DNA from: Nipponacmea schrenckii
Lineage: Eukaryota; Mollusca; Gastropoda; Lottiidae
Assembly (NCBI GenBank): GCA_030562195.1
Contig: CM060201.1
Span: forward strand, 33,338,067 to 33,402,066
Length of the DNA: 64,000 nt
Direction: 5' to 3'
Below the pieces are notes generated by a model. That model worked only from the letters and a program-made list of their open reading frames with translations, was not told the DNA's origin and did not search any database. This document shows, piece after piece, positions 5,982 through 41,269 of this stretch. Both the position numbers and the translations under genes were made by a program. The stretch's first letter is position 1. Each line of letters begins with the position of its first letter.

Positions 5982-6318
5982 GTGAAGATTTATTGAGTAT
6001 TAAACCGGAAGTATTTATAGAAGGTCAACCTGGAAATGTTACCTGTATCAATAAAAACCCAACCTGGAATCTTTGAAATTTATGGGAGTATCAGTAATCA
6101 ACAGGCTATAACAACATGTTCATTAGAGTCACAAGTACCATGTGTAATTAATACCCAAAGACCTGATTACAGTCAATATTACAGTGTATCTAACACTACC
6201 AACAGTGCAACAATTCATATTAACACTGTCAATAGAACAAGAGATGGTGGTCAGTGGAGGTGTGCTGCTATTGGATCAAATGGTGAAATGAAAGATAGTA
6301 TAACAATAGATGTAAAAG
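5982..6318 (+). CDS. Ig domain exon with apparent frameshift
   Basis: The acceptor is ATATTTACAG ending at 5981 and the donor is AAAAG|GTAAT, both phase 1. The first third reads EVFIEGQPGNVTC in the phase set by the acceptor. The rest reads on in another frame with DGGQWRCAAIGSNGEM, the second Ig cysteine and F/G-strand region. The frames switch between about 6060 and 6085, so one base is extra or two are missing. The split falls inside one clear Ig domain, so a sequencing error or a recent mutation is more likely than two exons. Confidence 0.75.
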
Positions 6319-12300: not shown

Positions 12301-15300
12301 TATCTGAGTATATCTCCCTCCCGATTACCCCTAGGGCGCTGGCGCTGGAGTCCCGCGCCGAGCCTGCACGGAGGTCGTGGTCCGTGGTGGTCGGGGGTCT
12401 CGGGAGACGAATCCTCATACTATTCTTCATAGCTACAATAAATAAAAAAAAAAACAAACGAGCGTAAGCGCCGGTTGACCGAGGCTTCATTTACTGATTC
12501 GTCCAGTTCAGACAAATCATGGCCTCGGTTTCTTGTCATTGACAGTAGTGACCCTGAGAGGCCATTATCATCTTTATCTCCTTTTGCCATTTCTTAAGGT
12601 TTGCCTGGCCTGGCCGGCGAACCGAAGTCAATTAAAAAACTACGTAACGGGTCTTTATTGGTCGAATGTTCTCGTAGAATTCATTTGGATTACTTTTGAA
12701 ATCGGCTAACTTGGCCAACATTCCCATTCAGGTTTCTTCTTTGAACTCTCCCAAGGGGTCATTAGACATCCGGACCTCTATGGATGTTCGTCAGAAGAAA
12801 TGCAGGAAGAATTGAAAGAAATTAGAATCACAAACGTTGACCGAATATCAATCCGTCGTGACGGCCAATTAATTGCAACCAATACTTTCATTATTTTTTT
12901 TAACAGACCCAATTTACCATTTGAAATAAAAATAGGCTATTTAAATGTAAAAATTTCCCATTTCATTCCAAATCCTCTCAGATGTTACAACTGTCAACGC
13001 TTCGGGCACGGAACTCGAACTTGCGATATCCTCTTTTGATCATAAGAAAATTAAGAATATTTAAGTATTGGACAAAGCTTTTGCATGCGGAAAATAAAAT
13101 CTTACAAAACTGTTATACTGAAATGATAAAAAATAATGACTGCTGGATTATAAGCGTAAAATCAGAATTATATAAGATAGGCCTTGGTTCTATTTGGGAA
13201 AACCCTTTTACTCCTTCAACTAAAATAAATTATTGCAGGATTAAGTTTAGAATTTTTGATATTTTTAGACAAGAAACATACTGATATTTGTATCTCCAGT
13301 AAAGGTTTTATTTTCCAACATTTGATTTTAAACAAATTCCAACTCCAATCTTATTTCTGTAAGAATATCTTGTACAAATATCGTCGTGAAATTACTCGTT
13401 TTAGATTATCTAGTCATGACCTAAATATTGAGAAGGGTCGTTACTCGAATATTGAAAAAGAATATAGACTATGTCTCTGCTGTAGTAAAAATGAAGTCGA
13501 GGACGAATTCCATTTTCTTTTTATATGCCCACTTTATATTGATTTACGGACAAACCTTTTTAAAAAATAATTTCGTATCAGACCAAGCATGTACAAGCTG
13601 ATCCAATTTTTGTCGAGTGAAAACACTTCTGAACTAAATAGTCTTGGTAAATATATATATTTAGCAATTAAAAGAAGAAAAGACTACCTTAAATCAATTT
13701 TAAAATAATTATTATATTTATAATCTCAACATTTTTCAGTTTGGTATATTATGTATATTCTTATCTTTCCTAGCTATGTTGTTTTCAATTTAATTGGTCC
13801 TTATATACCAACATACCTATATTCATATTTTGTTCCATATTTGTATTTCGCTCTCCTTTCTTTGTATATCATACTTTTCTGTACATTTGTGTATTATGTA
13901 TATATTCTGTATATATCTGATGAACCAGTGGTTCAAAGAAAATAAAGAATTGAATTGAAGAGTTTGATAAAATGTGCACGGTGCGGTCAGTCCGGATTGC
14001 ACCGAAACGCCTTGCTGTTGCAACTGTGATGGCAAACATGTTGCTTTCTCTAAGGACTGTCCGAAATGGAAAATTGAAAACAAATACAAAAAATAAAAAT
14101 AGAAAATAAAATATCATATTCCGAAGCGAGGAAGGTTGTAGAAGGTGCAATCCCATCTGCTCCTTCAGGACAGACTTTCGCCAATGTTGTAAAGGCTTCT
14201 ACTAATTCAGTAGAATGCCAAACCGACATAACATGGCTGAAATAGGTACCAATAGCATCTACAGCTTTGTAACCACTTGTTCCCTAAGCGACTCCTTGTA
14301 CATCATCGGCTACACAGACTCCTCAAACCGAGAAGTTCCAAGCTGATGATTGTAATGCCAGTCAGTCTGCTAAAGAGGTACAACCGAAAGGGATTGGTAA
14401 ACAGTCAAAACAAAAACAAAGTGATAGTCTTTCCAAAAATGACAAGTCCGGCAAAAAATATGGATCCTCCTCCAGAAAAGGAGGAAGAGATCTTTTGAAG
14501 TCTGCCATATCTGATAGTATAGATATGAAGACTTCAGAGGTTGATGCGGAATATCTCAACCCCCCTTACCGCATCGTAGTCCAATCAAACCGCCCTGACA
14601 ATGCATTCAAAAAATATTATAATGCAATGGAATTGTCGAGGTTTAAGTCATTATTTAAATAAAGTACATCTATTGATCCAACAATACAATCCGTTGGCTA
14701 TTTGTCTCCAAGAGACATTCCTCAAGCCAACGGATTTACATTTAGTGCCATTCAAACATTTTGTTTCCTACCACCATTATGGCACAGGTGATGACAAGGT
14801 CTCGGGTGGTGTTTCTATTATTGTTAATAGAAACGTTGCCCAGTCCGAAATCACACTCAATTCTCCTCTGCAGGTAATTGCCGTGCGAGTAACACTCCAC
14901 GTGCCTATTACCCTCTGCTCCATCTATTTGCCACCTAACTCAACATTAAACCCCAGAGAATTGGATGACCTAGTCCTGATGACATCAGAGGAAAATTAAT
15001 AGCTGACTTCATATATAACAACGATCTTTGTATCTTTAATGACGAATCGCCAACATATTTCTGCTCGAGAACAAAAACTTTTTCTCATCTAGATCTGACA
15101 ATTAGCTCACCATCTTTGTTCCAAGATTTTTCTTGGAGCGTCCACGACGATCTCTGCCTTCACCAGTAGACAGGCCACAAAGATGGAAACTCTCTAAAGC
15201 TAATTGGCCCCTCTTTGAGGCGCTTTGCATATCTTCTTTTCCTCAAGATGTTCTTGATCAAGCAGAAGACCCGATGGAACTATTTACCACCATCTTACAA

Positions 15301-18300
15301 GATGTATCGGGTCAGGTGATTCGTAAAACCTCGGCAACTCCAAAACGATTCAATAAACCATGGTTTAATGAAGACTGTAAGAGCGCAATCGTGCTTTACG
15401 ACTGCTTGAACGTGCTCCTTCCGATGACAACATGGCCTCTTTTCGCATTGCGAAGGCCAGGCGGACTATTCGTCAGGCAAAGAGGTCATGGCAGGAGTAC
15501 GTGTCAAAGATCAGCAGTCGTACGTCTTCCAAATCAGTCTGGGATAGGATTCGTAGGATCAAGGGTAAAGCATATACAATATCTGTGAACCATCTAGAAG
15601 TAGATGGCTCAACACTCACCACTCTTCCAGATATTGCTAATTCTTTGGGAAGTAATTTTTCCTTTAATTCATCCTCAAACTTTTCCTCTGATGCTTTCCA
15701 GAGAGTCCGTCTCCGGGAAGAGAGCAAAAGATTAAATTTTACATCCAAAAATGAGGAATATTATATAATGAAAAATTTAATATATCTGAACTTAAGTAAT
15801 CTTTAAAACAGGCCCATGGTACAACAACTGGGCCTGATGATATTCATTATCAGATCCTAAAACATCTTCTTACCAATCATTAAAAAAAACTTTTACTTAT
15901 ATTCAACCAGATTGAATTTTCGTGCAGGATTGCTACCATTATTCCCATCCCAAAACCTGGTAAAGATCCTACGAATCCTACTAATTATCGCCCTATTGCA
16001 TTGACCAGCTGCATTTGTAAAACCATGGAGCGGATGATCAATAGAAGGTTCGTTTGGCACCTTGAGTCAAACAATCTTCTTACTTACCTCCAATGTGGAT
16101 TTCGGTCCCAAAGGAGCACTCTTGATAATCTCATTAGATTTGAATCGTTCGTCAGGGACGCCTTCATTCAAAATCACCATTTAGTAGCCATAAGTTTTTT
16201 ATTTGGAGGCATATGATACTACTTGGAGATATGGCATTCTTCGTGATCTCTTTGACTTCGGTCTAAGAGGAAGATTGCCATTATTTATCTCCAATGTCCT
16301 ACCTGATAGGACGTTTAAGGTACGACTTGGCTTTATATTTTCGGACTCTTTTCCTCAGGATAATGGAGTTCCTCAGGGGAGCATATTATCCGTTACCCTT
16401 TTTTCCATCAAAATAAATCCATCACCTCGTGCCTTAGACGGGGGGTTGATGGCTCTCTGTATTTGATGACTTTCAGATGTGTTACAGTTCTACTAACATG
16501 CAGACGATCGAGCGTCAGTTGCAGCTTTGCTTAAACAATCTACAGCAATGGGCAACTGACAATGGATTTCGATTTTCGAAATCCAAGACCGTCTGCATGC
16601 ATTTCTGTAAGAGGTTTGCACCTTGACCCAGTGCTACGTTTGGACAATGCTGTCGTTCCTGTTGTTCAGGAATTTAAATTTCTTGGTCTTACCTTTGACA
16701 GCAAGCTTTCTTTTCGTCCACACATTAAAATCCTCAAGAACAAATGTCTAAAAGCTCTCAACATACTGAGAGTCTTATCCAACAATGACTGGGGAGCAGA
16801 CCGTAAGGTCTTCCTCCGATTATATCGAGCTTTGGTTCGATCCAAGCTCGATTATGGGTGCCAGGTGTATGGTTCAGCTCGTCCGACCTACCTCAAAGAG
16901 TTGACACCATACACAAAGAAGGACAAGGCGCTTTTATCACAACTCCAGCTGAAGGTCTGTAAATCGAGGCTAACGAACCCTCACTGTACGACAGACGTGA
17001 CAGACTTTCACTGCAGTATGCTATTAAAATAGCATCTTTGCCAAATCATCCGGCTCACCGCCCCGTATTTAGTCCTTATTTTGAGCATTTGTAAGAGGCA
17101 AAGCCTAGTGCAATTTCTTCTTTTGGAGTCCGCATTCAACCCCTTATGTCAGCGGCTGGTATCAGTCACGACAGTATTGCGGACTTCATAATGACCACAA
17201 TTTCACCGTGATCGATTGCTCCATTTCAGATAGACTTCAGTCTATCAAGCAATAAGAAGTCACAGACAAGCTCTATCGTCTTTCAGTCTAAATTTCTTGA
17301 AGTAAGGACTAAATAATATGGGGATTATGCTCCTTTCTATACAGATGGGTCCAAGGATGGTGATAAGGTAGCAGCTGCAACAGTTACGCCATCCGAAGTC
17401 CTGTCTGTATCTCTTCCATCAGCAGCCTCTATTTTTACTGCAAAACTCGTAGCCATTTTACAGGCACTCGAGTTCTTTCAGTCCTCGTCATCATTAATAA
17501 AAATAATCTGACGTAAATGTTGATCAGTTTTGGACTTACGTGGTTTCACAATTTGAGATATTTTCGTGTTCATTTTGCGTTTGTATAACAATTTGTACGG
17601 TGATATTTCCGTATTTCCGTTGTCTGAAGTTCTTGTTTCCAATTCAAACTGTCAGAGTGAACGGATCTTACTGCTGTATTTAAACTGTTCATAAATTTCT
17701 CTATTTGTCCATTAGCTCTTGGATATCTTGGAGTTATTTTTCTATGATGAAATCTTAAATGTTTAGCATAGTTTTTGAAATGATCACTTTGAAAAGGAGG
17801 GCCATTGTCAGTTCTTATCTCCTCAGGAATACCATATTCAGATAAAATTCTATCCAATTCTGGTATTACTGTTTTAGCAGATGTGGATTTGATGATAGAC
17901 ACAACTGGATATCTTGAATAATCATCCATTATTGCTAATACATATTCACCATTAGGATAAGGTCCACTAACGGCCATTGAATGTTTCTGTCTAGCGTAAT
18001 CAGGTAAATCTTCCTCACTTGACATGGTAGACAATATTCAATTAGATCTTCTACTGCTGTATCAATACAAAAAAAATATATATTTTATCTCTCAAGGTTG
18101 ATATTTAACAACGAATTCATAATCTTGAAGCTTTAGCCTCATACGTTCTATACGTAGCGTAGTTTGTTTCTTAGGATTGTTCAATAACGTTTGAAGTGGT
18201 TGATGATCAGATATGACTTTAAATGGTTCACCAAATAAGTAGTTATGGAATTTAAATAAAGTAATTCTCTTAAAATACCAGTAATATAGTTTGGAATAAA

Positions 18301-21300
18301 TTTTGAACTGTAATTACACATTTCTAGAAATCTGATGCATTCTTGTGTTCTGTAACTTTTTGTAATGCTTCTACTATACTAGGTGCAGGTGAAATTCCAT
18401 TCTGGCTGAACACAAAGCTAAAAAATTCAATTGAAGGTTGGTTAAATATACACTTCTTTGGATTGACTGTCAAACCATCTTTAAGCCCTTTGAAATGTTG
18501 CTTTTAGAGTTTGATTATGTTCTTTCTCAGTTTTTCCATAAATTGCGATATCATCATGAACATTTATTACACCAGGTATGTCACAAAAAGTTTTTCTCAA
18601 AATTTCATGAAATTCTTCCGCTGCTGATTTGGTACCGTAGTTTTGTCTTTTATAGCGCATCAATCCCACGTCTGTCGAAAATGTTGTTATATAACGACAG
18701 CTAAACTAACCTGATGATAGCCATCTTTTAAATCAACCTTTGAGTACGTAGTTAAACCATTAAGTTGATAAGCTATTTCATCTATTATTGGTACAGGATG
18801 TCGAATTCTTTCTATAGCTTTATTTGGTATCTCCATATCTAAAACAGAATCGTATCTTGCCGTTCGCTGTACAGGTTACAACAGGTGGTGTTACTCAATC
18901 AGTTGGACCTGTGACATCTTCTATCACATCATTCTCTTTCAGATGCTTCAATTCTTCTTCTACTTTATCTTGTAAATTAAATGGTATTCGTCTTTGTTTT
19001 TGAGCTAGCGGCGTTATTGTTTTATCAATATGAAGTTTTATCTCAACATTCTTATGAAGGCCAATACCATGAAATATTACATCATATTCTTTCTTCAGAT
19101 TCTGTATTTTGTTCTCCAGATTTATTTTCAATATCATTTGAAGGCTTTTCACTTTGACTCATATTATCTTCTGTTTTTACAGCTTTAACATTGATTTGTA
19201 AAATATTCAGTCTACATGCTGTGTGATAACCTAGTATTGGTGTTAATTTTTTCTTGGATTTTACTACTATAAAATTCTGCTAAAAGTCACAATCTATTAA
19301 TAAAATAATAATAATAATGGTCTAAAATCCAACATGTGTTGCTCTTGGGTTACATTATGGTTAAGAATTACGTCGTTAATTAAAATCAATAAAATCATCC
19401 CACTTTTAAATAACATAGTTTCTGAAAAGGTAGGTTTTAAGATCTCGTTTAAAACTGTCAATTGATGCACTGTTTTTAAGTTCAATAAGAAATCTCCTCG
19501 AATTCCACAGTTCTGCTGCAGCAAAGGATAGAGAGCGCCTACATTATACTTGATGATTTTTGCTGTATCGGTATTTGGTTATCAGGAAAACCTATAATGT
19601 ATATTATTACTATAATTACAGTTCCTGTATCTAGTGTAGAAATCATCAACAACAATGTTTTATTATTATTATAATTACAGTTTCCTGTATCTAGTGTAGA
19701 AATCACCAATAACAATGTTTATTATTACTATAATTACAGTACCTGTATCTAGTATAGAAATCATCAATAACAATGTTTATTATTACTATAATTACAGTAC
19801 CTGTATCTAGTATAGAAATCATCAATAACAATGTTTATTATTACTATAATTACAGTACCTGTATCTAGTATAGAAATCACCAATAACAATGTTTATTATT
19901 GACTATAATTACATTACCTGTATCTAGTGTAGAAATCACCAATAAAAATGTTTATTATTACTATAATTACAGTACCTGTATCTAGTGTAGAAATCACCAA
20001 TAACAATGTATATTATTACTATAATTACAGTTCCTGTATCTAGTATAGAAATCACCAATAACAATGTATATTATAACTATAATTACAGTACATGTATCTA
20101 GTATAGAAATCACCAATAACAATGTTTATTATTACTATAATTACAGTACCTGTATCTAGTGTAGAAATCACCAATAACAATGTTTATTATTACTATAATT
20201 ACAGTACCTGTATCTAGTGTAGAAATCACCAATAACAATGTTTATTATTACTATAATTACAGTACCTGTATCTAGTATAGAAATCACCAATAACAATGTT
20301 TATTATAACTATAATTACAGTACCTGTATCTAGTGTAGAAATCACCAATAACAATGTTTATTATTACTATAATTACAGTACCTGTATCTAGTGTAGAAAA
20401 TCGCCAATAACAATGTTTATTATTACTATAATTACAGTACCTGTATCTAGTATAGAAATCACCAATAACAATGTTTATTATAACTATAATTACAGTACCT
20501 GTATCTAGTATAGAAATCACCAATAACAATGTTTATTATAACTATAATTACAGTACCTGTATCTAGTATAGAAATCACCAATAACAATGTTTATTATTAC
20601 TATAATTACAGTTCCTGTATCTAGTGTAGAAATCACCAATAAGAATGAAGATCTGATAAAAGATAGAACTGTCAATTTAGAATGTAAAACTATTGGAGGA
20701 TACCCTCTACCAAATATCACGTGGTCTATAGATACTAGAATATTGATGACGTCAGTTAGTACAACTACTAGTAGATTACCATACCAACCTGTTGTATCAG
20801 ATCAAGGTCAAAGGTTACAATGTTTAGCTACCAATGGTTATGGTCAATCTCAAACTGATTCATTTCAACTTGATATAAAATGTAAATACGTTTTTATCAC
20901 CAACATCAAATAATACATTTATTGCAATTAAGATATTTATTCAACACAGATAAAAGTACTACCTTAACTTCAATATATAACTGATTATTCATATAATGAA
21001 AAGGTACCCAATATTGCTGAATGAAAATAACTGAACTCTTACTTGATATTTCCAGATAAACCAGTTGTTGATATAAAACCATCTATAACACCTTATAAAC
21101 TGATACAAAATCAGACAGTTCAGTTAGAATGTCAAGTTACCCAATCTAATCCAGTAGTTACAAGTTATAAATGGTATAGAAATGGTAATATAATACCAGG
21201 ATCTAGTTTATATTATACAGTATCTAATGATGGTAGTTATTCCTGTTCAGCTACTAATTCTGTTGGTGAATCTAATAGAAGTCGTGTTATATCTGTAGAG

Positions 21301-24300
21301 ATTTTATATCCACCGACTGTATCTACTCCACCATCACCATATTCTATTATAGAATCTACTACTCTCACTATACCCTGTATAGCTACATCTAATCCTGTAC
21401 CTAATAATTATACTTGGTCTGGACCTAATAACTTGATACAATCTCAACAGAATTTAACTATATCTAGTATCAATAGAGATCAAACAGGACAATATACATG
21501 TACAGTTAGTAATATCATGATATCAACTACTGGTGGACAACAAACTGGTATAGGATTTAGTTCAACTACTGTCAATGTTTTATGTAAGTATTGAATATTA
21601 AAACCTCTATGGCAAGACAACGTCCACTTTCATTCAATCTGTCTCTTCTCATCAACGATTATAAACAAATATCGGATTACCATCCATTCTCCATTAGACC
21701 ATAAGGTGCAGAAGTAAAAGTCCATTCATTTCATTTCATTTCTGATTATCATGATACTTATTAGTATAGTTATATTATATTACAGATGGTCCTGAAGTCA
21801 GTGTATCTAGTGTAGAAACTGATTATCATGATACTTATTAGTATAGTTATATTATATTATAGATGGTCCTGGGGTCAGTGTATCTAGAGTAGAAACTGAT
21901 TATCATGGTACTTATTAGTATAATTATATTATATTACAGATGGTCCTGAAGTCAGTGTATCTAGAGTAGAAACTGATTATCATGGTACTTATTAGTATAA
22001 TTATATTATATTACAGATGGTCCTGAAGTCAGTGTATCTAGTGTAGAAACTGATTATCATGGTACTTATTAGTATAATTATATTATATTACAGATGGTCC
22101 TGAAGTCAGTGTATCTAGAGTAGAAACTGATTATCATGGTACTTATTAGTATAATTATATTATATTACAGATGGTCCTGAAGTAAGTGTATCTAGAGTAG
22201 AAACTGATTATCAATGTGCCTATTAGTATAATTATTCTATATAACAGATAGTCCTGAAGTAAGTGTATCTATTGTAGAAACTGATTATCATGGTACTTAT
22301 TAGTATAATTATATTATATTACAGATGGTCCTGAAGTCAGTGTATCTAGTGTAGAAACTGATTATCATGGTACTTATTAGTATAATTATATTATATTACA
22401 GATGGTCCTGAAGTCAGTGTATCTAGTGTAGAAACTGATTATCATGGTACTTATTAGTATAATTATATTATATTACAGATGGTCCTGAAGTCAGTGTATC
22501 TAGTGTAGAAACTGATTATCATGGTACTTATTAGTATAATTATATTATATTACAGATGGTCCTGAAGTCAGTGTATCTAGTGTAGAAACTGATTATCATG
22601 GTACTTATTAGTATAATTATATTATATTACAGATGGTCCTGAAGTCAGTGTATCTAGTGTAGAAACTGATTATCATGGTACTTATTATTATAATATATTA
22701 TATTACAGATGGTCCTGAAGTCTGTGTATCTATTGTAGAAACTGATTATCATGGTACTTATTGGTGTAATTATATTATATTACAGATGGTCCTGAAGTCA
22801 GTGTATCTAGAGTAGAAACTGATTATCATGATACTTATTAGTATGATTATATTATATTACAGATTGTCCTGAAGTAAGTGTATCTAGTGTAGAAACTGGT
22901 TATCATGGTACTTACTGTATAATTATATTATATTACAGATGGTCCTGAAGTCAGTGTATCTAGAGTAGAAACTGATTATCATGATACTTATTAGTATGAT
23001 TATATTATATTACAGATTGTCCTGAAGTAAGTGTATCTAGTGTAGAAACTGATTATCATGGTACTTATTAGTATAATTATATTATATTACAGATGGTCCT
23101 GAAGTCAGTGTATCTAGAGTAGAAAACTGATTATCATGGTACTTATTATCATAATTATATTATATTACAGATGGTCCTGAAGTCAGTGTATCTAGTGTAG
23201 AAACTGATTATCATGGTACTTATTAGTATAATTATATTATATTACAGATGGTCCTGAAGTCAGTGTATCTAGTGTAGAAACTGATTATCATGGTACTTAT
23301 TAGTATAATATGCTATATTACAGATGGTCCTGAAGTCAGTGTATCTAGAGTAGGAACTGATTATCATAGTACTTATGAGTATAATCAAATTATATTACAG
23401 ATTGTCCTGAAGTCAGTGTATCTAGAGTAGAAACTGATTATCATGGTACTTATTAGTATAATTATATTATATTACAGATGGTCCTGAAGTCAGTGTATCT
23501 AGAGTAGAAACTGATTATCATGGTACTTATTAGTATAATTATATTATATTACAGATGGTCCTGAAGTCAGTGTATCTAGAGTAGAAACTGATTATCATGG
23601 TACTTATTAGTATAATTATATTATATTACAGATAGTCCTGATATCAGTGTATCTAGTGTAGAAACTGATTATCATGGTACTTATTAGTATAATTATATTA
23701 TATTACAGATGGTCCTGAAGTCAGTGTATCTAGAGTAGAAACTGATTATCATGGTACTTATTAGTATAATTATATTATATTACAGATGGTCCTAAAGTCA
23801 GTGTATCTAGAGTAGAAACTGATTATCATCGTATTTATTTGTATAATTAGATTATATTACAGATGGTCCTGAAGTCAGTGTATCTAGTGTAGAAACTGAT
23901 TATCATGGTACTTATTAGTATAATTATATTATATTACAAATGGTCCTGAACTCAGTGTATCTAGTGTAGAAACTGATTATCATGGTACTTATTAGTATAA
24001 TTATATTATATTACAAATGGTCCTGAAGTAAGTGTATCTAGTGTAGAAACTGATTATCATGGTACTTATTAGTATAATTATATTATATTACAGATGGTCC
24101 TGAAGTCAATGTATCTAGTGTAGAAACTGATTATCATGGTACTTATTAGTATAATTATATTATATTACAGATGGTCCTGAAGTCAGTGTATCTAGTGTAG
24201 AAACTGATTATCATGGCACTTATTGGTATAATTATATTATATTACAGATGGTCCTGAAGTCAGTGTATCTAGAGAAGAAACTGATTATCATGGTACTTAT

Positions 24301-27300
24301 TAGTATAATTATATTATATTACAGATGGTCCTGAAGTCAGTGTATCTAGAGTAGAAACTGATTATCATGGTACTTATTAGTATAATTATATTATATTACA
24401 GATGGTCCTGAAGTCAGTGTATCTAGAAAAGAAACTGATATCAAAGAAAATGAGAATCTAAGAATAAATTGTACAGTAAAATCCAATCCACCAACCAATG
24501 ATATAGTATGGTACCAATCTAATGGTGATATTGTACCAAATCAATTTGTGGTTAATTCTGGAGCTAATAGAAGAGATTTAGTTATTAATGATATCAATCG
24601 TAGCAAGTCAGATAATTATACTTGTACAGCACGATTAGATCTACATCCTACAGTTGGTGGAGTTTTACATCAAACTCACAGTCAATCGTCTATTATTAAT
24701 GTACAATGTAAGTGAATTTATATTATACAATGTTTGACATATTAAACTAGATGTAAGAATAGAAAGGGGTATGGTTTTGTTTGGTTTAATATTATCATAT
24801 AATCAGGTTTAGAAATCGCCAGGATGAGCTTATGTTTCATTAAGTATCTGTTACCATTGTTCTTTTCAGATTTTGATGATATAGTAATAACCACCAACCA
24901 AACTAAAGTAAAAGAGAATGATGCTGTATTTATAACATGTACTGTTGATAGTAACCCACCAGCTTCTATCAAATGGTTTAAAGATGGTGAAGTAGAATTA
25001 CCAACATCAAATTCTAATATCTACCTGATATCATCAATATCCTGTTTAGATACTGGAAATTATTCCTGTTTAGCTACAAATCCTGTTTATATAAATCAGA
25101 AAACCAAATCATCAGAACTGTTGGTCCACTGTAAGTATACATTAGTAATTCCTATTCTGACTGACTGGTAGGTGTGGTGTCTGCTACGGTAATCAAATCA
25201 TATCGCATGCTCTTCTGATGTGCTAATAGGTAATCATTCCTATTTCTTTTAAGAAATAATAAACTGATTCACAAATTGCCGACACACCCTCTCCCGTATG
25301 TGACAAAATGTTTTTCAGGTTATAGTCCAGCTTACGTTTATTCAATAAATCGACCAGCGTTTCTTCTTGTGATTTCTTACCTTACCCATCTTTCCTCAGA
25401 CGAGCGACCGACAGACAGATCTGTCGATTGGGATGGTGCAAGATTACTTTACTGCTAATGCTATCGTTTAGTCTGAAGCGAAACGTATCAGCATCCACGA
25501 GAGTTTCCTCCCATGCAGATTTGATGCTCTAACCGATCATGCTCCGGATTTCTGATAAACTGTAGTCTACCGGCTCAATTTCCGTTAGATCTAGTCCTTG
25601 TTTTGCGAGTTCATCTGCAATCTCGTTTCCTTGTATGCCAACATGAGACGGGATCCATGCCAACTCGATTGATTTGCCTTGACTATGTATCAATGAGCTC
25701 GCTTGCCTGATTTCATCCACTAGCGCCGGTTGGGAACTCGAAGAATCGTTGACAATCGACATCAGGCTGCTAATACTACATAATTTGGATTATGGTGGGG
25801 CCCGCGGAATAGTCACCGCATACAGGATTGCAAGCATCTCTGAGGTATACACCGAGCAGTTATTGGGTAATCGCTTGATTATTCTTGTACTACTCGAAGG
25901 GATATAAATCCCCAACCCGGTCGTACTATTTTCCGGGTTATGGGAACCATCAGTGTAGATACGGGTGCTTTCCGACCACCTAGCGTCCATATGAGTTAAA
26001 GCAATCATCAGAGCGATGCAGGGATCGTCCCGTTTTTTTTATCCAATCTCGTAGCGAGAGAGGTGTCACAAGAGGAGGCGTGATCGTCCAAGGAGCAATT
26101 TGGGGGAGAGAAAACGCTCTGATGGGCAACCTATCTAGCCCATATTTCCGAACGGATTCCTGAACTGCCTGACCAAAACTTATATTCTTTTTGGCTTGCC
26201 TGAACCTCGTAATCTCGAGGTAGGTGGGAGATGATTCTCAAATGTGCTTGATTTTTGACAAGTATCTTAGGGCTTGCTCCTCTCTGCGGAGTTTGAGAGG
26301 GACCTCACCAACATCTTGGATTATGGACTCAGTTTTTATTCCGATACCTCCTCCAGGGGCTCCACTGGAGTTATGGATCAAAGTAGGCCCCCCATCGTTC
26401 AATAAGCACGTGTCGTTATCCTCTATGAATTCGAGTAGTCCCTTTCCACGACCATCTTGCTTTTTCGATCCCCATGCGACGTATTTGGAATTGAAATCAC
26501 CACAGAACATGACGTTCCGATGTGATATTTGTTCACGTAGGTTTCGATATGAGCTTGGTTCAATGACATTCTTACCAGGCGGCAGATAAACATTGACTAT
26601 TGCTATTTTCTTTCCATCAGCAAGGGAGAGGGATACTCCGATAACCTCAAATTCATTACTACGTAGTGTTTGATAAGGTATTTCTTCCCTTACGTAGATT
26701 GTAATTCCTCCACCGATACGCTTTTTATGTGAACTAGGTCTATCCAGTCTAGAGTAGAGATACCTGGGCAAGGTTGGATCATCTACTCCAGGATAGAGCT
26801 TGGTTTCCTGTAGTCCGAAACTTGCTGACTCTCTAATTGCATAAATACGATTAAAACCCCCGAACCTGCGGAGGTGCGGAAAATCCCAAGTTTTAGGTGC
26901 TTAGTTTTCTGACTCTTTCTCAGCCATATCTGTCCAAATAGCTATCAGAGGCTGGTAATAGAGTCAGCAAGTATCGGACAAGTATTGGAAACAGAGAACG
27001 TCGTACCGGGCGGTACTAAGAAATTTCCTCAACTCAACAAGCCTAGCCCGAAGACCATTAAGGTTATGGATTTTAAGACTGCGATCCATTGCGACAGTTC
27101 TAAAGATGCTAGTCTTTAACTGTCGAAGTAATTTATTCGTCCTGCCAGTCGTGCCCAGGAGTTAAGCAAGTATTGGGGTCACATTGATCAGATAGAACAT
27201 GTTCTTCCATTACCTCCTCCTCTCTGTCGCTCACTTCTGGACAGGACTCTGCCTCTGAGTCGGAAGCCCTGTGTTTGAAATAGACGCTTAAGTTTAGCAT

Positions 27301-30300
27301 CAGTCCTACTTGAATACAGATTCACTATATTATGTTTATTTGTATATCTGAATAATATGTAATCTGAGTAATCCGACGTTCTACTTAATCCACATGTAAT
27401 ATACACATGCATAGTCAGGTTAGGTACATTTATAGTTTGTATATTTATATAGGTTCACTATGTTTAGTAATTTTTACTGTTTGTTTTTTATATAGGTTCA
27501 CTATGTATAGTAATATTTACTGTTTGTTTTTTATATAGGTTCACTATGTTAGTAATATTTACTGTTTGTTATTTATATAGGTTCCCCATGTATAGTAATA
27601 TTTACTGTTTGTTTTTTATATAGGTTCCCCATGTATAGTAATTTTAAACTGTTTGTATTTTTATATAGGTTCACTATGTTTAGTAATATTTCTTTTTGGT
27701 ATATTTATATAGGTTAAATATGTTTAGTAATATTTACTGTTTGTATTTTTATATAGGTTCACTATGTATAGTAATATTTACTGTTTGTATATTTATATAG
27801 GTTCACTATGTATAGTAATATTTACTGTTTGTTATTTATATAGGTTCACCATGTTTAGTAATATTTACTGTTTGTTATTTATATAGGTTCCCCATGTTAG
27901 TAATATTTACTGTTTGTATATTTATATGGGTTTTACTATTTTAAAAGTAATATTTACTGTTTGTATATTTATATGGGTTTTACTATGTATAGTAATATTT
28001 CCCGTTTGTATTTTTATATGGGTTTCCCCAAGTTTATTTAATTTTTACTGTTTGTATTTTTATTTTGGTTCACTATTTTAAGTAATATTTACTGTTTGTA
28101 TATTTATTTTGGTTTTAATATGTTTATTAATATTTACTGTTTGTATTTTTATATAGGTTCACTATGTATAGTAATATTTACTGTTTGTATTTTTATATAG
28201 GTTCACTATGTTTAGTAATATTTACTGTTTGTATTTTATATGGGTTTCCCCAAGTTTAGTAAAAATTTACTGTTTGTATTTTTATATAGGTTCACTATGT
28301 ATAGTAATATTTACTGTTTGTATATTTATATAGGTTAAATATGTTTAGTAATATTTACTGTTTGTATTTTATATAGGTTCACTATGTTTAGTAATATTTA
28401 CTGTTTGTATTTTTATATAGGTTCACTATGTTTAGTAATTTTTAACTGTTTGTATATTGATATGGGTTCACTATTTTTAAGTAATTTTTACTGTTTGAAT
28501 ATTTATATAGGTTCACATGTTTATTTAATATTTACTGTTTGTATTTTTATAAAGGTTCACTATGTATAGTAATATTTACTGTTTGAATATTGATAAAGGT
28601 TCCCCTGTTTAGTAATATTTACTGTTTGTATATTTATATAGGTTCACTATGTATAGTAATATTTACTGTTTGTATATTTATATGGGTTTCCCCAAGTTTA
28701 GTAAAAATTTACTGTTTGATTTTTATATAGGTTCACTATTTTAAAATTTAATATTTACTGTTTGTATATTTATATAGGTTAAATATGTTTAGTAATATTT
28801 ACTTTTTGTATTTTTATATAGGTTCCCCATGTATAGTAATATTTATTGTTTGTATTTTTAATATAGGTTCACTATGTGTAGTAATATTTACTGTTTGTAT
28901 TTTTATATGGGTTCACTATGTTTAGTAATATTTACTGTTTGTATATTTATATAGGTTCACTATGAAAAAGTAATTTTTACTGTTTGTATATTTATATAGG
29001 TTCCATTTTTAATTTAATATTTACTGTTTGTATATTTATAAAGGTTCACTATGTATAGTAATATTTACTGTTTGAATATTTATATAGGTTCACTATGTAT
29101 AGTAATATTTACTGTTTGTATATTTATATGGGTTTCACTATGTTTAGTAATATTTACTGTTTGTATATTTATATAGGTTCACTATGTTTAGTAATTTTTA
29201 ACTGTTTGTATATTATATGGGTTCACTATTTTAAAAGTAATTTTTACTGTTTGAATTTTTATATAGGTTCACATGTTTATTTAATATTTACTGTTTGTAT
29301 TTTTATAAAGGTTCACTATGTTTAGTAATATTTACTGTTTGAAATTTGTATAGGTTCAAATGTTTATTAATATTTACTGTTTGTATTTTTATATAGGTTC
29401 ACTATGTATAGTAATATTTACTGTTTGTATATTTATATAGGTTCACTATGTTAGTAATATTTACTGTTTGTATATTTATATAGGTTCACTATTTTAAAAT
29501 TTAATATTTACTGTTTGTATATTTATATAGGTTCACTATGTATAGTAATATTTATTTTTGTATATTTATATAGGTTCCCCATGTTAGTAATATTTACTGT
29601 TTGTATTTTTAATATGGGTTTTACTATGTTTAGAAAAATTTTTAACTGTTTGTATTTTTATATGGGTTCCCCATGTTTAGTAATATTTACTGTTTGTATA
29701 TTTATATAGGTTCACTATGTTAGTAATATTTACTGTTTGTATATTTATATAGGTTCACTATTTTAAATTTAATATTTACTGTTTGTATATTTATATAGGT
29801 TCACTATTTTAAGTAATATTTACTGTTTGTATATTTATATGGGTTCCCCATGTTTATTTAATATTTACTTTTTGTATTTTTAATAAAGGTTCACTATGTA
29901 AAATAATATTTCCTGTTTTATATTTATATGGGTTCCCCATTTTTAAAATAATTTTTACTGTTTGTATATTTATATAGGTTCACTATGTATAGAATATTTA
30001 CTGTTTGTATATTTATATAGGTTCACTATGTTAGTAATATTTACTGTTTGTATATTTATATAGGTTCACTATTTTAGAAATATTTACTGTTTGTATTTTT
30101 ATATGGGTTTCCCCATGTATAGTAATATTTACTGTTTGTATTTTTATATAGGTTCACTATGTTAGTAATATTTACTGTTTGTATATTTATATAGGTTCAC
30201 TATTTTAATTTAATATTTACTGTTTGTATATTTATATAGGTTCCCCTTGTTTAGTAATATTTACTTTTTGTATATTTATATAGGTTCACAATGTTAGTAA

Positions 30301-33300
30301 TATTTACTGTTTGTATATTTATATGGGTTTCCCCAATTTTTAAGTAAAAATTTACTTTTTGTATTTTTATATAGGTTCACTATGTTAGTAATATTTACTG
30401 TTTGTATATTTATATGGGTTAAATATGTTTAGTAATATTTACTGTTTGTATTTTTATATAGGTTCACTATGTATAGTAATATTTACTGTTTGTATATTTA
30501 TATAGGTTCACTATTTTAAAAGTAATATTTACTGTTTGTATTTTTATATAGGTTCACTATGTATAGTAATATTTACTGTTTGTATATTTATATAGGTTCA
30601 CTATGTTTAGTAATATTTACTGTTTGTATATTGATATAGGTTCACCACGATTAGATACAAGAGAAGATAACAAACTAAAAGTACCTGGTAATATTGGAGA
30701 AAAAGTAAAAATTAACAGCAGATATTATTTCCTATCCTGGTGCTAATTTTCAATGGTTTTATAAAGATAATGGTAGTAAAATAATGATTGGAAATAAAGA
30801 ACCATATTTGGTCATCAACAATCAAAGATTTATTAACAGTTATAGATCTGTGTTAAGAATAAATATTACATCAATTGATATATACAGACAGTATTATTTA
30901 AATATTACCAATGATGATGGACTGAGTAATAGTTTACAGTTCCACCTTATATCTGGAGTAATTTAAGTATTTGAATGTACATTGTATAAATTTAATTCGT
31001 AAAATAAACAGAGCCTAAAAGCCTTGATCATTACATTATTCCTAAAAACTTGAGAGTCAAATGAATAAAATTTAAGGAAACATGTACCTTATTATTTATT
31101 TTATAAATATTCAATTCAACTTTCAGCTGTGCCAGATAGACCACAAGATGTCAGGTTATTAAATAAAACATCAGATACAATTTGTATAGAATGGACACCA
31201 GGATTTAATGGTGGAGCATCACAAAGTTTTATAGTTCAACATTCTACTGATGATAAAACATGGGTCAATTCGTCCACAATACCAGATAGTACCAATAATG
31301 GTCGAGTTGACTATTGTATAGAAGGATTAGAACCAGATACTAGTTATTATATTAGAGTGATAGCTAGTAATAAATATGGTGAAAGTTTAATTGGTACATT
31401 ATCTCAGAGTGAACTTCCTAAAACAGACCCGCTACAAGGTAGGTCTATTGAGGTTAAAATCAATACTTTAGTAGAGAGGGTGTGGTTCAGAAAATACTTA
31501 CTGGTACATATTTATCTATGTCAGCTACAATGACCGAGATGTACAATACAATGAACGATACAATTTCAATGTACAATTAGTTGCTGCGATCAAGTACATG
31601 GCCTCAAAAGAAAGGATGTACATGCTATGATGATTTGACAAACCAACAACGATAATAACAGACAAAAGACACAACACCTAGCAACAGCAGCGAATGAAGC
31701 ACCTCGATGCAATCAATAAGCTACCAAAGAACAAGGTAAACAATAGTCAGAAAAAATAACCTGATATTGTTAATTATTAAAGCACGTGTTTCTCCTGACC
31801 TGCCTTTAAAATAAAACTTGCGAATGGGATAAAGGGATAACAATGAACGAATTTGAACAATCTTTTACACTTGTATTATTCTTGTTACAAATATTATAAA
31901 TTCATAGCCTTTTCATCTGGGAATGTCAAACAAATTTGAACAATCTTTTACACTTGTATTATTCTTGTTACAAATATTATAAATTCATAGCCTTTTCATC
32001 TTGGAATGTCAAACAAATTTGAACAATCTTTTACACTTGTATTATTCTTGTTACAAATATTATAAATTCATAGCCTTTTCATCTTGGAATGTCAAACAAA
32101 TTTGAACAATCTTTTACACTTGTATTATTCTTGTTACAAATATTATAAATTCATAGCCTTTTCATCTTGGAATGTCAAACAAATTTGAACAATCTTTTAC
32201 ACTTGTATTATTCTTGTTACAAATATTATAAATTCATAGCCTTTTCATCTTGGAATGTCAAACAACTTTGAACAATCTTTTACACTTGTATTATTCTTGT
32301 TACAAATATTAAAAATTTCATAGCCTTTTCATCTTGAAATGTCAAACAACTTTGAACAATCTTTTACACTTGTATTATTCTTATTACAAAGATTATAAAA
32401 TCATAGCCTTTTCATCTTGGAATGTCAAACAAATTTAAACAATCTTTTACACTTGTATTATTCTTGTTACAAATAATATAAATTCTTAGCCTTTTCATCT
32501 TGGAATGTCAAACAAATTTGAACAATCTTTTACACTTGTATTATTCTTGTTACAAATATTATAAATTCATAGCCTTTTCATCTGGGAATGTCAAACAAAT
32601 TTGAACAATCTTTTACACTTGTATTATTCTTGTTACAAATATTATAAATTCATAGCCTTTTCATCTGGGAATGTCAAACAAATTTGAACAATCTTTTACA
32701 CTTGTATTATTCTTGTTACAAATATTATAAATTCATAGCCTTTTCATCTTGGAATGTCAAACAAATTTGAACAATCTTTTACACTTGTATTATTCTTGTT
32801 ACAAATATTATAAATTCATAGCCTTTTCATCTTGGAATGTCAAACAAATTTGAACAATCTTTTACACTTGTATTATTCTTGTTACAAATATTATAAATTC
32901 ATAGCCTTTTCATCTTGGAATGTCAAACAAATTTGAACAATCTTTTACACTTGTATTATTCTTGTTACAAATATTATAAATTCATAGCCTTTTCATCTTG
33001 GAATGTCAAACAAATTTGAACAATCTTTTACACTTGTTTTATTCTTGTTACAAATATTATAAAATCATAGCCTTTTCATCTTGGAATGTCAAACAACTTT
33101 GAACAATCTTTTACACTTGTATTATTCTTGTTACAAATAATTTAAATTCATAGCCTTTTCATCTTGGAATGTCAAACAACTTTGAACAATCTTTAACACT
33201 TGTATTATTCTTATTACAAATATTATAAAATCATAGCCTTTTCATCTTGGAATGTCAAACAACTTTGAACAATCTTTTACACTTGTATTATTCTTGTTAC

Positions 33301-36300
33301 AAATATTATAAAACATAGCCTTTTCATCTTGGAATGTCAAACAACTTTGAACAATCTTTTACACTTGTATTATTCTTGTTACAAATATTATAAATTCATA
33401 GCCTTTTCATCTTGAAATGTCAAACAACTTTGAACAATCTTTTACACTTGTATTATTCTTATTACAAAGATTATAAAATCATAGCCTTTTCATCTTGGAA
33501 TGTCAAACAAATTTAAACAATCTTTTACACTTGTATTATTCTTGTTACAAATAATATAAATTCTTAGCCTTTTCATCTTGGAATGTCAAACAAATTTGAA
33601 CAATCTTTTACACTTGTATTATTCTTATTACAAATATTATAAATTCATAGCCGTTTCATCTTGGAATGTCAAACAAATTTGAACAATCTTTTACACTTGT
33701 ATTATTCTTTACAAATAATATAAATTCTTAGCCTTTTCATCTTGGAATGTCAAACAAATTTGAACAATCTTTTACACTTGTATTATTCTTGTTACAAATT
33801 TTATAAATTCATAGCCTTTTCATCTTGGAATGTCAAACAAATTTGAACAATCTTTTACACTTGTATTATTATTGTTACAAATATTATAAATTCATAGCCT
33901 TTTCATCTTGGAATGTCAAACAAATTTGAACAATCTTTTACACCTGTATTATTCTTGTTACAAATATTATAAATTCATAGCCTTTTCATCTTGGAATGTC
34001 AAACAACTTTGAACAATCTTTTACACTTGTATTATTCTTGTTACAAATATTATAAATTCACAGCCTTTTCATCTTGGAATGTCAAACAAATTTGAACAAT
34101 CTTTTACACTTGTATTTTTCTTGTTACAAATATTATAAATTCATAGCCTTTTCATCTTGGAATGTCAAACAAATTTGAACAATCTTTTACACTTGTATTA
34201 TTCTTGTTACAAATATTATAAATTCATAGCCTTTTCATCTTGGAATGTCAAACAAATTTGAACAATCTTTTACACTTGTATTATTCTTGTTACAAATAAT
34301 ATAAATTCTTAGCCTTTTCATCTTGGAATGTCAAACAAATTTGAACAATCTTTTACACTTGTATTATTCTTGTTACAAATAATATAAATTCTCAGCCTTT
34401 TCATCTTGGAATGTCAAACAAATTTGAACAATCTTTTACACTTGTATTATTCTTGTTACAATATTATAAATTCATAGCCTTTTCATCTTGGAATGTCAAA
34501 CAAATTTGAACAATCTTTTACACTTGTATTATTCTTGTTACAAATATTATAAATTCATAGCCTTTTCATCTTGGAATGTCAAACAAATTTGAACAATCTT
34601 TTACACTTGTATTATTCTTGTTACAAATATTATAAATTCATAGCCTTTTCATCTTGGAATGTCAAACAAATTTGAACAATCTTTTACACTTGTATTATTC
34701 TTGTTACAAATATTATAAATTCATAGCCTTTTCATCTTGGAATGTCAAACAAATTTGAACAATCTTTTACACTTGTATTATTCTTGTTACAAATATTATA
34801 AGTTCATAGCCTTTTCATCTTGGAATGTCAAACAAATTTGAACAATCTTTTACACTTGTATTATTCTTGTTATAAATAATATAAATTCATAGCCTTTTCA
34901 TCTTGGAATGTCAAACAAATTTGAACAATCTTTTACACTTGTATTATTCTTATTACAAATATTATAAATTCATAGCCTTTTCATCTTGGAATGTCAAACA
35001 AATTTGAACAGTCTTTTACACTTGTATTATTCTTGTTACAAATAATATAAATTCATAGCCTTTTCATCTTGGAATGTCAAACAAATTTGAACAATCTTTT
35101 ACACTTGTATTATTCTTATTACAAATATTATAAATTCATAGCCTTTTCATCTTGGAATGTCAAACAAATTTGAACAATCTTTTACACTTGTATTATTCTT
35201 GTTACAAATATTATAAATTCATAGCCTTTTCAACTTGGAATGTCAAACAAATTTGAACAATCTTTTACACTTGTATTATTCTTGTTACAAATATTATAAA
35301 TTCATAGCCTTTTCAACTTGGAATGTCAAACAAATTTGAACAATCTTTTACACTTGTATTATTCTTGTTACAAATATTATAAATTCATAGCCTTTTCAAC
35401 TTGGAATGTCAAACAAATTTGAACAATCTTTTACACTTGTATTATTCTTTACAAATAATATAAATTCATAGCCTTTTCATCTTGGAATGTCAAACAAATT
35501 TGAATAATCTTTTACACTTGTATTATTCTTGTTACAAAAATATAAATTCATAGCCTTTTCATCTTGGAATGTCAAACAAATTTGAACAATCTTTTACACT
35601 TGTATTATTCTTGTTACAAAAAATATAAATTCATAGCCTTTTCAACTTGGAATGTCAAACAAATTTGAACAATCTTTTACACTTGTATTATTCTTATTAC
35701 AAATATTATAAATTCATAGCCTTTTCATCTTGGAATGTCCAACAAATTTGAACAATCTTTTACACTTGTATTATTCTTGTTACAAATAATATAAATTCAC
35801 AGCCTTTTCATCTTGGAATGTCAAACAAATTTGAACAATCTTTACACTTGTATTATTCTTGTTACAAATAATATAAATTCACAGCCTTTTCATCTTGGAA
35901 TGTCAAACAAATTTGAACAATCTTTTACACTTGTATTATTCTTGTTACAAATATTATAAATTCATAGCCTTTTCATCTTGGAATGTCAAACAAATTTGAA
36001 CAATCTTTTACACTTGTATTATTCTTGTTACAAATATTATAAAACATAGCCTTTTCATCTTGGAATGTCAAACAACTTTGAACAATCTTTTACACTTGTA
36101 TTATTCTTGTTACAAATATTATAAATTCATAGCCTTTTCATCTTGAAATGTCAAACAACTTTGAACAATCTTTTACACTTGTATTATTCTTATTACAAAG
36201 ATTATAAAATCATAGCCTTTTCATCTTGGAATGTCAAACAAATTTAAACAATCTTTTACACTTGTATTATTCTTGTTACAAATAATATAAATTCTTAGCC

Positions 36301-39300
36301 TTTTCATCTTGGAATGTCAAACAAATTTGAACAATCTTTTACACTTGTATTATTCTTGTTACAAATATTATAAATTCATAGCCTTTTCATCTGGGAATGT
36401 CAAACAAATTTGAACAATCTTTTACACTTATCATTAAGCCCAGATATTTAAACATGGAAACACTGTATTATTATCACCCATTTCGCGCCCATCCGTCCGT
36501 TCGTCCGTCCACAATTGCTCGTAAACACTCTATTAGGCACAATACTTGACTTTGTGTGAGTGTACGTAATCACCCAAGGATTGTAAATCATCGAAATCAG
36601 AAACTATTTAGTATGAGTTTTTGCTCTTGAATTGCTCGTAAACACTCTACAACAAACAATCTTCTTGACGGATTTTTGATAAAACTTGGTGTGGGCTTTT
36701 ATAACAATTTTCAAGAAATATTTTTGAGCTTTTGTCTGATATATTATTCAAAATTAATGCTGCCAGTGTGCCTACATTACCTTGCCTGGCAAGCTATCTC
36801 TTTAGATTTCAGCCTTTCCATAAGTCTAAGGTGATATTTGATTAAATTGGCAACGCACTTCATAAAAGTTTTCTATTTTTATTCCTACATCATTACTCTC
36901 CATTTCTCTAAATGTAAGAATTTATTTTTTCTCCATTCTGACTAATAAAGTTATTACCATCACATGTTCTATCTACCAGAGCATAATAGTGTAGCTTTAA
37001 TGGAATAATCAACGGAGCTAGGCTTATCTTGGGCCAATTATAACAAAGGTTACAAAAAAAGACTTATTTTCATAAAAAATGAACAATTTATAAGGAAGAT
37101 AGCCAATAAAGATATTGAACTACAATGTTATTTGTTGCTATGCTTTAATTATATATTAGAAAAAGTGATTTAGGTAAAAGCTTGACATTTAGATATAAAT
37201 ACTTTGATTCCAGATGGTCCAGGTGGTACAGATACTGATAACAGTACGGCCTTAATTGGAGGAGTAGTTGGTGCTGTTTTAGCTGTGATAATTATTATTA
37301 TATTTGTTGTGTTAATTATTCGACGAAAGAAAATCAAATCACCAGGTAAATTTTTTTTTATTTATTCTTTTTATGTCTGGTATGTTTTACCCTGTCTCGA
37401 ATGGCATTAAGCATAAATTGAATGAGAATACTTTAAAAACGTTTTACTTTGTTTCTGATCCAAATTTAGAAGTTTTTTGTCTATTTTGATATTTGTTGTT
37501 AAAACACAAAACAATGTTTAGTTCTTAATCATATATAGGCTTATTGTCAATTTCTTTTGATAGGTAAAAATAAAGAGAGCGACTCCCAATTGTAAGTATT
37601 CTATGAATTGAATCAAAAGAGAATGAAAATGAAGACTGTATATTTATCTCCATAATTAAATTAACTTAAATTCATTTCTAACATAAATATATATATAATT
37701 CCAATTTACACTTTACTACCCCATTGTTTTATTTTAGCCTTTTTGTAAACTAGGTTTTATATTTCAGAGTTTTAAATGAAACACCATCATCAAATCAGAT
37801 GAGTATGTTATTTTACAACTTACTTATACTACTCAAAATAAGTATTTCAGAGTATAACGTATAGGTATTAACTGAATTCTGTTTCTTATCGTATTGTGTA
37901 TTATATCTTTCCAGTAATAGACGAGAATCCAGCTTACGTGAGTGTCGATGACCTACAAAATGATAAGCAAGTAAATAATGAAGACTGTGCAACACTAGTA
38001 TCACCTACTTACGCTGCTGTAAAGAAAACCAATAAATCAAAACAAGTAGCTGAAGGTGCAGTGACTAAGAAAAAAAAGAAAGAGACTAACAAGGAAGGTA
38101 TGAATTAAGTTACATGTATACACAGCTAGAATTATAACAATACAATGGATATTTACCAGTTGCCTTTTTTTACAGGAGTTACCCATATATCTTTACCATA
38201 TCATACAATTTGATCTGAACCAGATGAGACTGACACAACCTGCTGAATGTTTCTAACGCGACATTGATTTTAACACATGATCCTGCCCACAGTTAAAGCT
38301 GATAATCCTGATTAATTAAAATGTTCTAAATCAGAAATATATTTCTACAGGATTTTCTTTTTGATTTCACTTTCCTTGTTTTCAAGATAAAAATAAATCT
38401 AAGACAAAGAAACAGAATAAAGTTACCATGGTAGAAAATCAGAATCCTCAAACGAAGAAGCGTGGTAAGAACTAAATTTTAATGACATTCTACCGCCGAT
38501 TATTACTCATGTCACTGATATCTATTATTAGATTATAGAGGACTAATTATATAATTATAAAATATCAACGTGTACATTATTTACTGTTTAATAGATTTCA
38601 ATATGTTCATGAAGTGAATATTGGAGATTTTTAGATTGTGTATTTATTCTAGGTGAAGTCTATGAAAATATTGGAATATTTTGGGAATAAAGTTTATGAA
38701 AATAGTTCTAATGAGGTAAGTTCGAATAGAAGTTTAATGTAAGAATATAATTTAAAAAGTTATCACTATACGCTGTTGACAAGACCGGTAGTATATTGTG
38801 GTTTATACTATAAAGGATGTAATATATTAGTTCTGTGAGAGTAGTTGAATGATTCGTGAAAATACAGTAATCGTGAACATGTGTTAGATAATTCGAGTAG
38901 ATATTGAAACTACAATTTTTAAAAAGAAAAGAGTAAATATCATTTGTATATTATTTACACCAGATCTATCAATATCAGCTATATAAGTTATATTTAAGGT
39001 TTCAGCCAGGCCAATATAGATAAAGTTACAATCAGGTATTTGAAAACAGGATATCAATTAAAACATTAGAAGCAAACTCAAAATTGTTGATTGTTTGTTC
39101 TCTAGATATCGTCGTAAGAGATATTTTAAAGACATTGTCCAATCCGAATAACAATGTTTGATACAAAGATCCCGTTATATTTATATTATAGATTACAAGC
39201 GAGCAAGTCAAAAATGATGACTTGGTATATGTAGATCTGAAGTTTGATAAGAAACCGTCCAATAAGGTGATAAAGAAACCATCTGAAGAAGATAAAGTGG

Positions 39301-40769: not shown

Positions 40770-41269
40770 NNNNNNNNNNNNNNNNNNNNNNNNNNNNNNN
40801 NNNNNNNNNNNNNNNNNNNNNNNNNNNNNNNNNNNNNNNNNNNNNNNNNNNNNNNNNNNNNNNNNNNNNNNNNNNNNNNNNNNNNNNNNNNNNNNNNNNN
40901 NNNNNNNNNNNNNNNNNNNNNNNNNNNNNNNNNNNNNNNNNNNNNNNNNNNNNNNNNNNNNNNNNNNNNNNNNNNNNNNNNNNNNNNNNNNNNNNNNNNN
41001 NNNNNNNNNNNNNNNNNNNNNNNNNNNNNNNNNNNNNNNNNNNNNNNNNNNNNNNNNNNNNNNNNNNNNNNNNNNNNNNNNNNNNNNNNNNNNNNNNNNN
41101 NNNNNNNNNNNNNNNNNNNNNNNNNNNNNNNNNNNNNNNNNNNNNNNNNNNNNNNNNNNNNNNNNNNNNNNNNNNNNNNNNNNNNNNNNNNNNNNNNNNN
41201 NNNNNNNNNNNNNNNNNNNNNNNNNNNNNNNNNNNNNNNNNNNNNNNNNNNNNNNNNNNNNNNNNNNNN
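40770..41269. other. Assembly gap (500 N)
   Basis: Exactly 500 undetermined bases. The round size suggests a default gap, so the real distance between the Ig gene and MAP10 is unknown. The frame that spans it is an artefact. Confidence 0.99.

Follow-up and report, generated by a model that had tools for sequence, protein, structure and literature searches.

How does the spliceosome select one acceptor among 18 to 73 near-identical ones? A natural test of this question is offered by a 64-kb stretch of the limpet Nipponacmea schrenckii genome (contig CM060201.1, positions 33,338,067 to 33,402,066; 33% G+C; hereafter the window, in whose coordinates all positions are given), which carries on its plus strand a gene made of immunoglobulin (Ig)-type exons, Ea and E1 to E7 (Table 1). 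The introns ahead of E1, E3 and E5 end in minisatellites, A1, A2 and A3, built from units that join the intron end with its acceptor to the first bases of the exon that follows. We consider it probable that these arrays are tandem intron-exon junction minisatellites of the kind known from amphioxus as mirages, that they grew by slippage or unequal exchange, and that they are tolerated through splicing to the last copy.

Tandem Repeats Finder reported units of 58 bp in A1 (18.1 copies, 95% matches), 77 bp in A2 (35.1 copies, 94% matches) and 44 bp in A3 (72.7 copies, hereafter 73; 85% matches), none of these lengths being a multiple of three. A first-pass annotation of this DNA had proposed that the three arrays repeat an acceptor plus the first exon bases, and that the last unit is in each case the real intron-exon junction. 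Both points hold: the consensus crosses the AG by about 31, 37 and 15 nt, and wraparound alignment, by which the copies were set in junction register, has the exon entered from the last copy at 20612 (A1), 24402 (A2) and 30640 (A3). We accept these exon starts because the E1 to E4 joints are open, Pfam families match, and relatives are found in Lottia gigantea. The exonic share is weakest in A3, where it differs from E5 by 3 mismatches, the first 6 bases being exact. The copy numbers proposed by the annotation, about 18, 35 and 70, stand at 18, 35 and 73; AG directly precedes the acceptor position in 16 of 18 copies in A1 (17 if a one-base shift is allowed), 33 of 35 in A2 and 55 of 73 in A3. 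Mean pairwise identity of full copies (0.958, 0.949 and 0.881 for A1, A2 and A3) is nearly the same for neighbouring and distant copies, which is what homogenised arrays should show; the last copy, in contrast to the mutually alike internal ones, diverges from the unit at its exon end in all three. Between the donor and the array lie 13277, 158 and 2297 nt in the three introns.

The reading frame singles out the last copies. Each of the 126 acceptor positions was read with the leftover base of the donor to the end of a fixed stretch, at 20881 for A1, 24707 for A2 and 30700 for A3 (61 nt of E5, before an apparent frameshift in that exon). Three positions are free of stops to the end, and these are the last copy of each array; of the remaining 123, 122 meet a stop entirely before the last junction and one, in A1, at or after it. 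With only the last copy reading open, splicing would have to choose it. On the intron side, the last acceptors of A1 and A2 match their unit consensus exactly, and that of A3 differs by a single base; if splicing does select the last copy, the following exon must therefore dictate it. Under exon definition, acceptor choice is guided by the downstream exon, and it is on this principle that the exon-driven reading is based. A scan for a simple branch-point pattern gave nothing telling.

The annotation knew of no named class for such arrays, but amphioxus mirages are arrays of this sort. Mirages are minisatellite-like tandem repeats over an intron-exon boundary, with units of 10-160 bp, described in Adh3 and in the globin genes BflGb6 and BflGb9 (PMC3087553; this and the other papers below are cited from excerpts of their text), to which troponin C and PGBD5 were added (PMC3902484). 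Two BflGb6 haplotypes hold 3 and 6 copies, and in this gene the internal copies are alike and the authentic edge copy departs at its exon end (PMC3087553). The likeness to the window is close: in both, the unit lies over the boundary, AG or GT signals recur in many copies, and the authentic junction stands at the edge of the cluster, spared homogenisation. All three window arrays cross the boundary, A3 with the smallest exonic part, their units fall within the mirage size range, and their last copies diverge at the exon end and alone open the frame. Judged by this analogy, what the window holds is an already named kind of array. What is new is the animal, the gene, the presence at three acceptors of one gene, and the size: unlike the amphioxus cases, the window arrays lie in a limpet Ig-type receptor gene and reach 73 copies against the 3 and 6 of the BflGb6 haplotypes, the window being known from the DNA of one haplotype. 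In the open-licence literature searched, as far as its excerpts go, we found no report of mirages by that name outside amphioxus and none of mirages or acceptor minisatellites in a mollusc; an abalone minisatellite lies in intron 3, with no junction stated in the excerpt (PMC6905558), and in that of a SAG12 paper the word occurs solely in a reference title (PMC8309469).

Two other known systems are less close. In human internal tandem repeats of segmental duplications, minisatellite expansion occurs, sometimes at exon-intron boundaries, in recently duplicated genes (PMC2812944); these repeats have 30-bp units and 4 copies on average, half of the repeats lie in coding sequence, and they are proposed to form new introns, in all of which the excerpt describes something unlike the window arrays. 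In the Rogers model, as cited in PMC3087553, introns are gained via tandem duplication of a proto-splice site. The likeness lies in the tandem duplication across a splice site and in some A2 copies with GTAAGT 11 nt after the AG; the difference is that the window shows a lengthened old intron and no new one, and no repeat copy is present at the 5' boundary of any of the three introns, where formation of a new intron would place copies at both boundaries. The altered A2 copies lie at 22171-24030, where a tiny exon could be defined. The score of the weakest among six real donors is equalled or exceeded by 6 of 254 GT dinucleotides in A2, 7 of 320 in A3 and 0 of 80 in A1, and no GT of any unit consensus scores like real donors. 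We rejected new introns within the arrays: donor-like sites are present, yet evidence of their use is not.

We propose that each array would have been founded when a junction in a once-short intron was duplicated head to tail, and that it would then have grown by slippage or unequal exchange, founding and growth both presumably being neutral. The last acceptor would win as the sole copy with a full exon and donor downstream, and use of an earlier copy would place a stop codon in the mRNA and likely lead to its decay. On this account the arrays would be non-adaptive, and tolerated since each keeps its last acceptor. The mechanism looks ordinary so far, and the interest lies in the size of the arrays, their likely place outside amphioxus and their likely inheritance within a receptor family. 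Should splicing sometimes turn to upstream copies, the length of an array would fix the dosage of the receptor or contribute peptides; should it never do so, the arrays show the strength of the downstream exon's hold on acceptor choice.

Relatives in L. gigantea bear on the age of the arrays. The spliced E1 to E4 form a single open protein of 455 residues, whose best match among 28 is the gene model LOTGIDRAFT_174458 (P0001; 90% identity over 80% of the query); further L. gigantea models cover less of it, at 88, 83 and 73% identity, and two 'CD22' models of Patella vulgata reach 44%. P0001 has VPVSSVEITNNNVYYNYNYSSC directly ahead of SVEITNKNED, which is the translated A1 unit save two residues, and none of 60 shuffles reaches the score of this piece on A1. 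Similarly, model 174356 (P0004) has three copies of a peptide like SPWFTILSNSHSLYIYIG ahead of SPRLDTRED that match A3 (0 of 60 shuffles). As controls, the P0004 pieces matched neither the four other arrays tested nor a retroelement stretch, where 8 to 59 of 60 shuffles scored at least as high, and the P0001 piece matched neither A3, the 24-bp and 83-bp arrays described below nor the retroelement stretch (8 to 51 of 60); the P0001 piece fell weakly on A2 (2 of 60), which fits the kinship of A1 and A2 described below. The A3-like unit of L. gigantea, 18 residues long (54 bp if contiguous, against 44 bp in the window), retains by eye more of the exon start (GSPW versus GSPR). A more distant family member, P0030, lacks such a peptide at E1, and its short stretch at E4-E5 looks like a retained short intron. 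Because A1- and A3-like peptides stand at the same junctions in the L. gigantea models, the arrays are probably inherited and real; the L. gigantea genes likely carry arrays at the same junctions, and the arrays likely predate the split of the window gene from them. These observations suggest that a mollusc, too, has mirages and that they are inherited along with a gene family.

The annotation further took the three duplications to be independent, a claim weakened by the units themselves. Those of A1 and A2 are alike across the exon-intron joint (score 37, the best of 1000 shuffles reaching 29), mainly through a 17-bp exonic block, TGTATCTAGT(G/A)TAGAAA, and their exon parts alone also give scores that none of 1000 shuffles reaches. 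The bodies of E1 and E3 show no likeness (182 of 300 shuffles score at least as high), and the 17-mer has no match with up to 3 mismatches elsewhere in the window outside A1 and A2. It is likely, although not proved, that A1 and A2 descend from a single array or exchanged units between two acceptors, and two origins, rather than three, may suffice. A single origin for all three was rejected, A3 being unrelated to A1 and A2 (116 of 300 and 68 of 300 shuffles reach the score).

Several observations weigh against the arrays as inherited, tolerated mirages. Use of the last copy in splicing is a deduction from the frame, and the intron side of the last acceptor, equal to the consensus in A1 and A2, offers no local preference for it. 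In the assembled sequence, a run of A in Ea and another in E5 (near 30705) each carry an apparent frameshift of 1 nt, which would represent either long-read errors or a decaying gene; if the gene is decaying, correct splicing is not required. Short shared repeats at the array edges, as a seed of slippage or duplication, were not significant (P 0.26 to 0.83). The L. gigantea evidence consists of predicted gene models, not DNA. As to the kinship of A1 and A2, their intron parts alone are only weakly alike (18 of 1000 shuffles reach the score), and in comparisons of the real sites over 28 pairs, E1-E3 leads barely at the intron ends (25, against 24 for Ea-E6) and ties with E4-E5 at the exon starts (score 19).

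We regard as unlikely the first of the alternatives, that acceptors are hot spots of tandem duplication in this genome, a shared motif or R-loops where introns end being conceivable causes. It would account for the fact that three of the five arrays with at least 10 copies in the window cross an acceptor, and for exon-start peptide repeats at the first Ig exon of two paralogs as well. With five such arrays placed at random and eight acceptors, three or more crossings have a naive P = 7.6e-5 on the single-copy gene span (21.8 kb) and 5.8e-6 on the whole window. However, much of the span is retroelement DNA, and the array-free introns, ahead of E2, E4 and E6, are short (174, 162 and about 167 nt). 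The A2 intron, now 2818 nt, has just its leading 158 nt ahead of the array and would be near the same size without it; the introns may thus once have been short. If introns measure 165 nt, as in a compact gene, an acceptor would be crossed by 21-32% of tolerated units, and the chance becomes 0.017 for three events, or 0.053 for two if A1 and A2 represent one event. The corresponding values for three and two events are 0.011 and 0.039 with 200-nt introns, 0.006 and 0.027 with 250-nt introns, and 0.0002 and 0.002 with 1000-nt introns. Three acceptor-crossing arrays in a compact gene are thus only mildly unusual, and the window was selected for this feature. A3 shares no similarity with A1 or A2. 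The annotation's suggestion of something special about the locus is weakened to the same degree.

Equally doubtful is the idea that the arrays feed exon growth, their units being coding in some family members and lengthening the starts of Ig exons by repeated peptides. Unit-like peptides do lie within L. gigantea proteins, one in P0001 and three copies in P0004, and 17-residue peptides like VIINTEPNELVDGESGQ are repeated in P0030 (4 copies, near the start of the first Ig domain) and in P0032 (8 tandem copies and one apart, near the first Ig domain start), perhaps a fourth exon-start array in paralogs. However, the L. gigantea peptides come from predicted models, and predictors favour open frames; a similar amphioxus PGBD5 model was, according to the excerpt, set aside by its authors (PMC3902484), and none of the upstream copies in the window gives an open frame into the exon. 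A broader form of the idea, to which we give no more credence, would make the acceptor minisatellites of limpet Ig receptors a long-lived source of new protein that shares the lifespan of the paralogs, trades units between acceptors of the same gene and is occasionally read into an exon, units that are multiples of three (54 bp and 51 bp in L. gigantea, going by the peptides) lengthening Ig domain edges by repeats of 17-18 residues.

Less probable still is that the arrays tune expression, partial use of upstream acceptors giving early-stop transcripts and array length setting the receptor level. The raw material for this exists: 104 of the 126 positions directly follow an AG, 123 of the 126 lead to a stop, and the last acceptor is on its intron side no stronger than internal copies. 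The decoys, however, show no sign of selection, AG being kept no better than the average column: in full units the A and G are conserved at 1.0 and 0.94 in A1 and A2 each and at 0.75 and 1.0 in A3, against all-column means of 0.974, 0.971 and 0.928 for A1, A2 and A3. Amphioxus mirages, moreover, reportedly leave splicing undisturbed (PMC3087553, PMC3902484, excerpts). That the arrays are artefacts of assembly, or inflated by it, is very improbable: A3 is noisy (58 of its 72 full units are distinct) and apparent indels occur at A runs in Ea and E5, but A1 and A2 are cleaner, and peptides resembling the units turn up again in L. gigantea models on other contigs.

The mirage reading is set in a gene whose layout is given in Table 1. 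The Ea-E1 joint would read AAA G|TT CCT. A Pfam scan, from which Ea was left out, gave Ig and fibronectin type III (fn3) matches across E1 to E4 and E6 and no family for the E5 piece. A search of solved structures ranked the Ig protein carcinoembryonic antigen (1e07) first among the best 60 of 155 matches, and added nothing. A run of 500 N lies at 40770-41269.

Table 1. Exons, acceptor arrays and retroelement remains located in the window.
Feature	Coordinates	Strand	Remarks
Exon Ea	5982..6318	+	Likely first Ig-type exon in the part seen; by-eye likeness to N-terminal part of P0001
Array A1	19596..20647	+	Unit: intron end of 27 nt (acceptor TTACAG) and about 31 nt from E1
Exon E1, Ig domain	20612..20881	+	Likely true acceptor is last A1 copy; donor GTAAAT; Pfam, splice joint
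Exon E2, two Ig stretches	21056..21583	+	Acceptor TTTCCAG without array; Pfam
Array A2	21742..24443	+	Unit: intron end of 39 nt (acceptor TTACAG) and about 37 nt from E3
Exon E3, Ig domain	24402..24707	+	Likely true acceptor is last A2 copy; Pfam
Exon E4, Ig domain	24870..25130	+	Acceptor without array; Pfam
Non-LTR retroelement remains	25532..26900	-	In the E4-E5 intron ahead of A3; pieces of endonuclease and RNase H
Array A3	27428..30645	+	Unit: intron end of about 29 nt (acceptor ATATAG) and about 15 nt from E5
Exon E5	30640..30957 (end approximate)	+	Likely true acceptor is last A3 copy; P0004 SPRLDTRED...
Exon E6, fibronectin type III	31127..31438	+	Acceptor without array; Pfam
Exon E7, transmembrane segment	37214..37345	+	Acceptor without array
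LTR, long terminal repeat.

Other repeats lie in and near the gene. A 24-bp array of 46 copies (TATGATCATTTCTAATTGTAGCAC; 6980-8099) is found in the 14.3-kb Ea-E1 intron and adjoins no exon seen, and an 83-bp array of 55 copies (96% matches; 31846-36429) lies in the intron before the transmembrane exon E7 and ends about 780 bp ahead of it. We rejected both as further mirages, since their ends meet no exon seen and their sequences are unrelated to A1, A2 and A3. At 40064-40500, a 164-bp repeat of 2.7 copies contains TTATAG, with no exon recognised after it by eye. The long introns at 8500-19200 and 25200-27300 contain LTR and non-LTR retroelement remains; of seven pieces scanned, two matched no family and five matched Pfam integrase, RNase H or endonuclease families.

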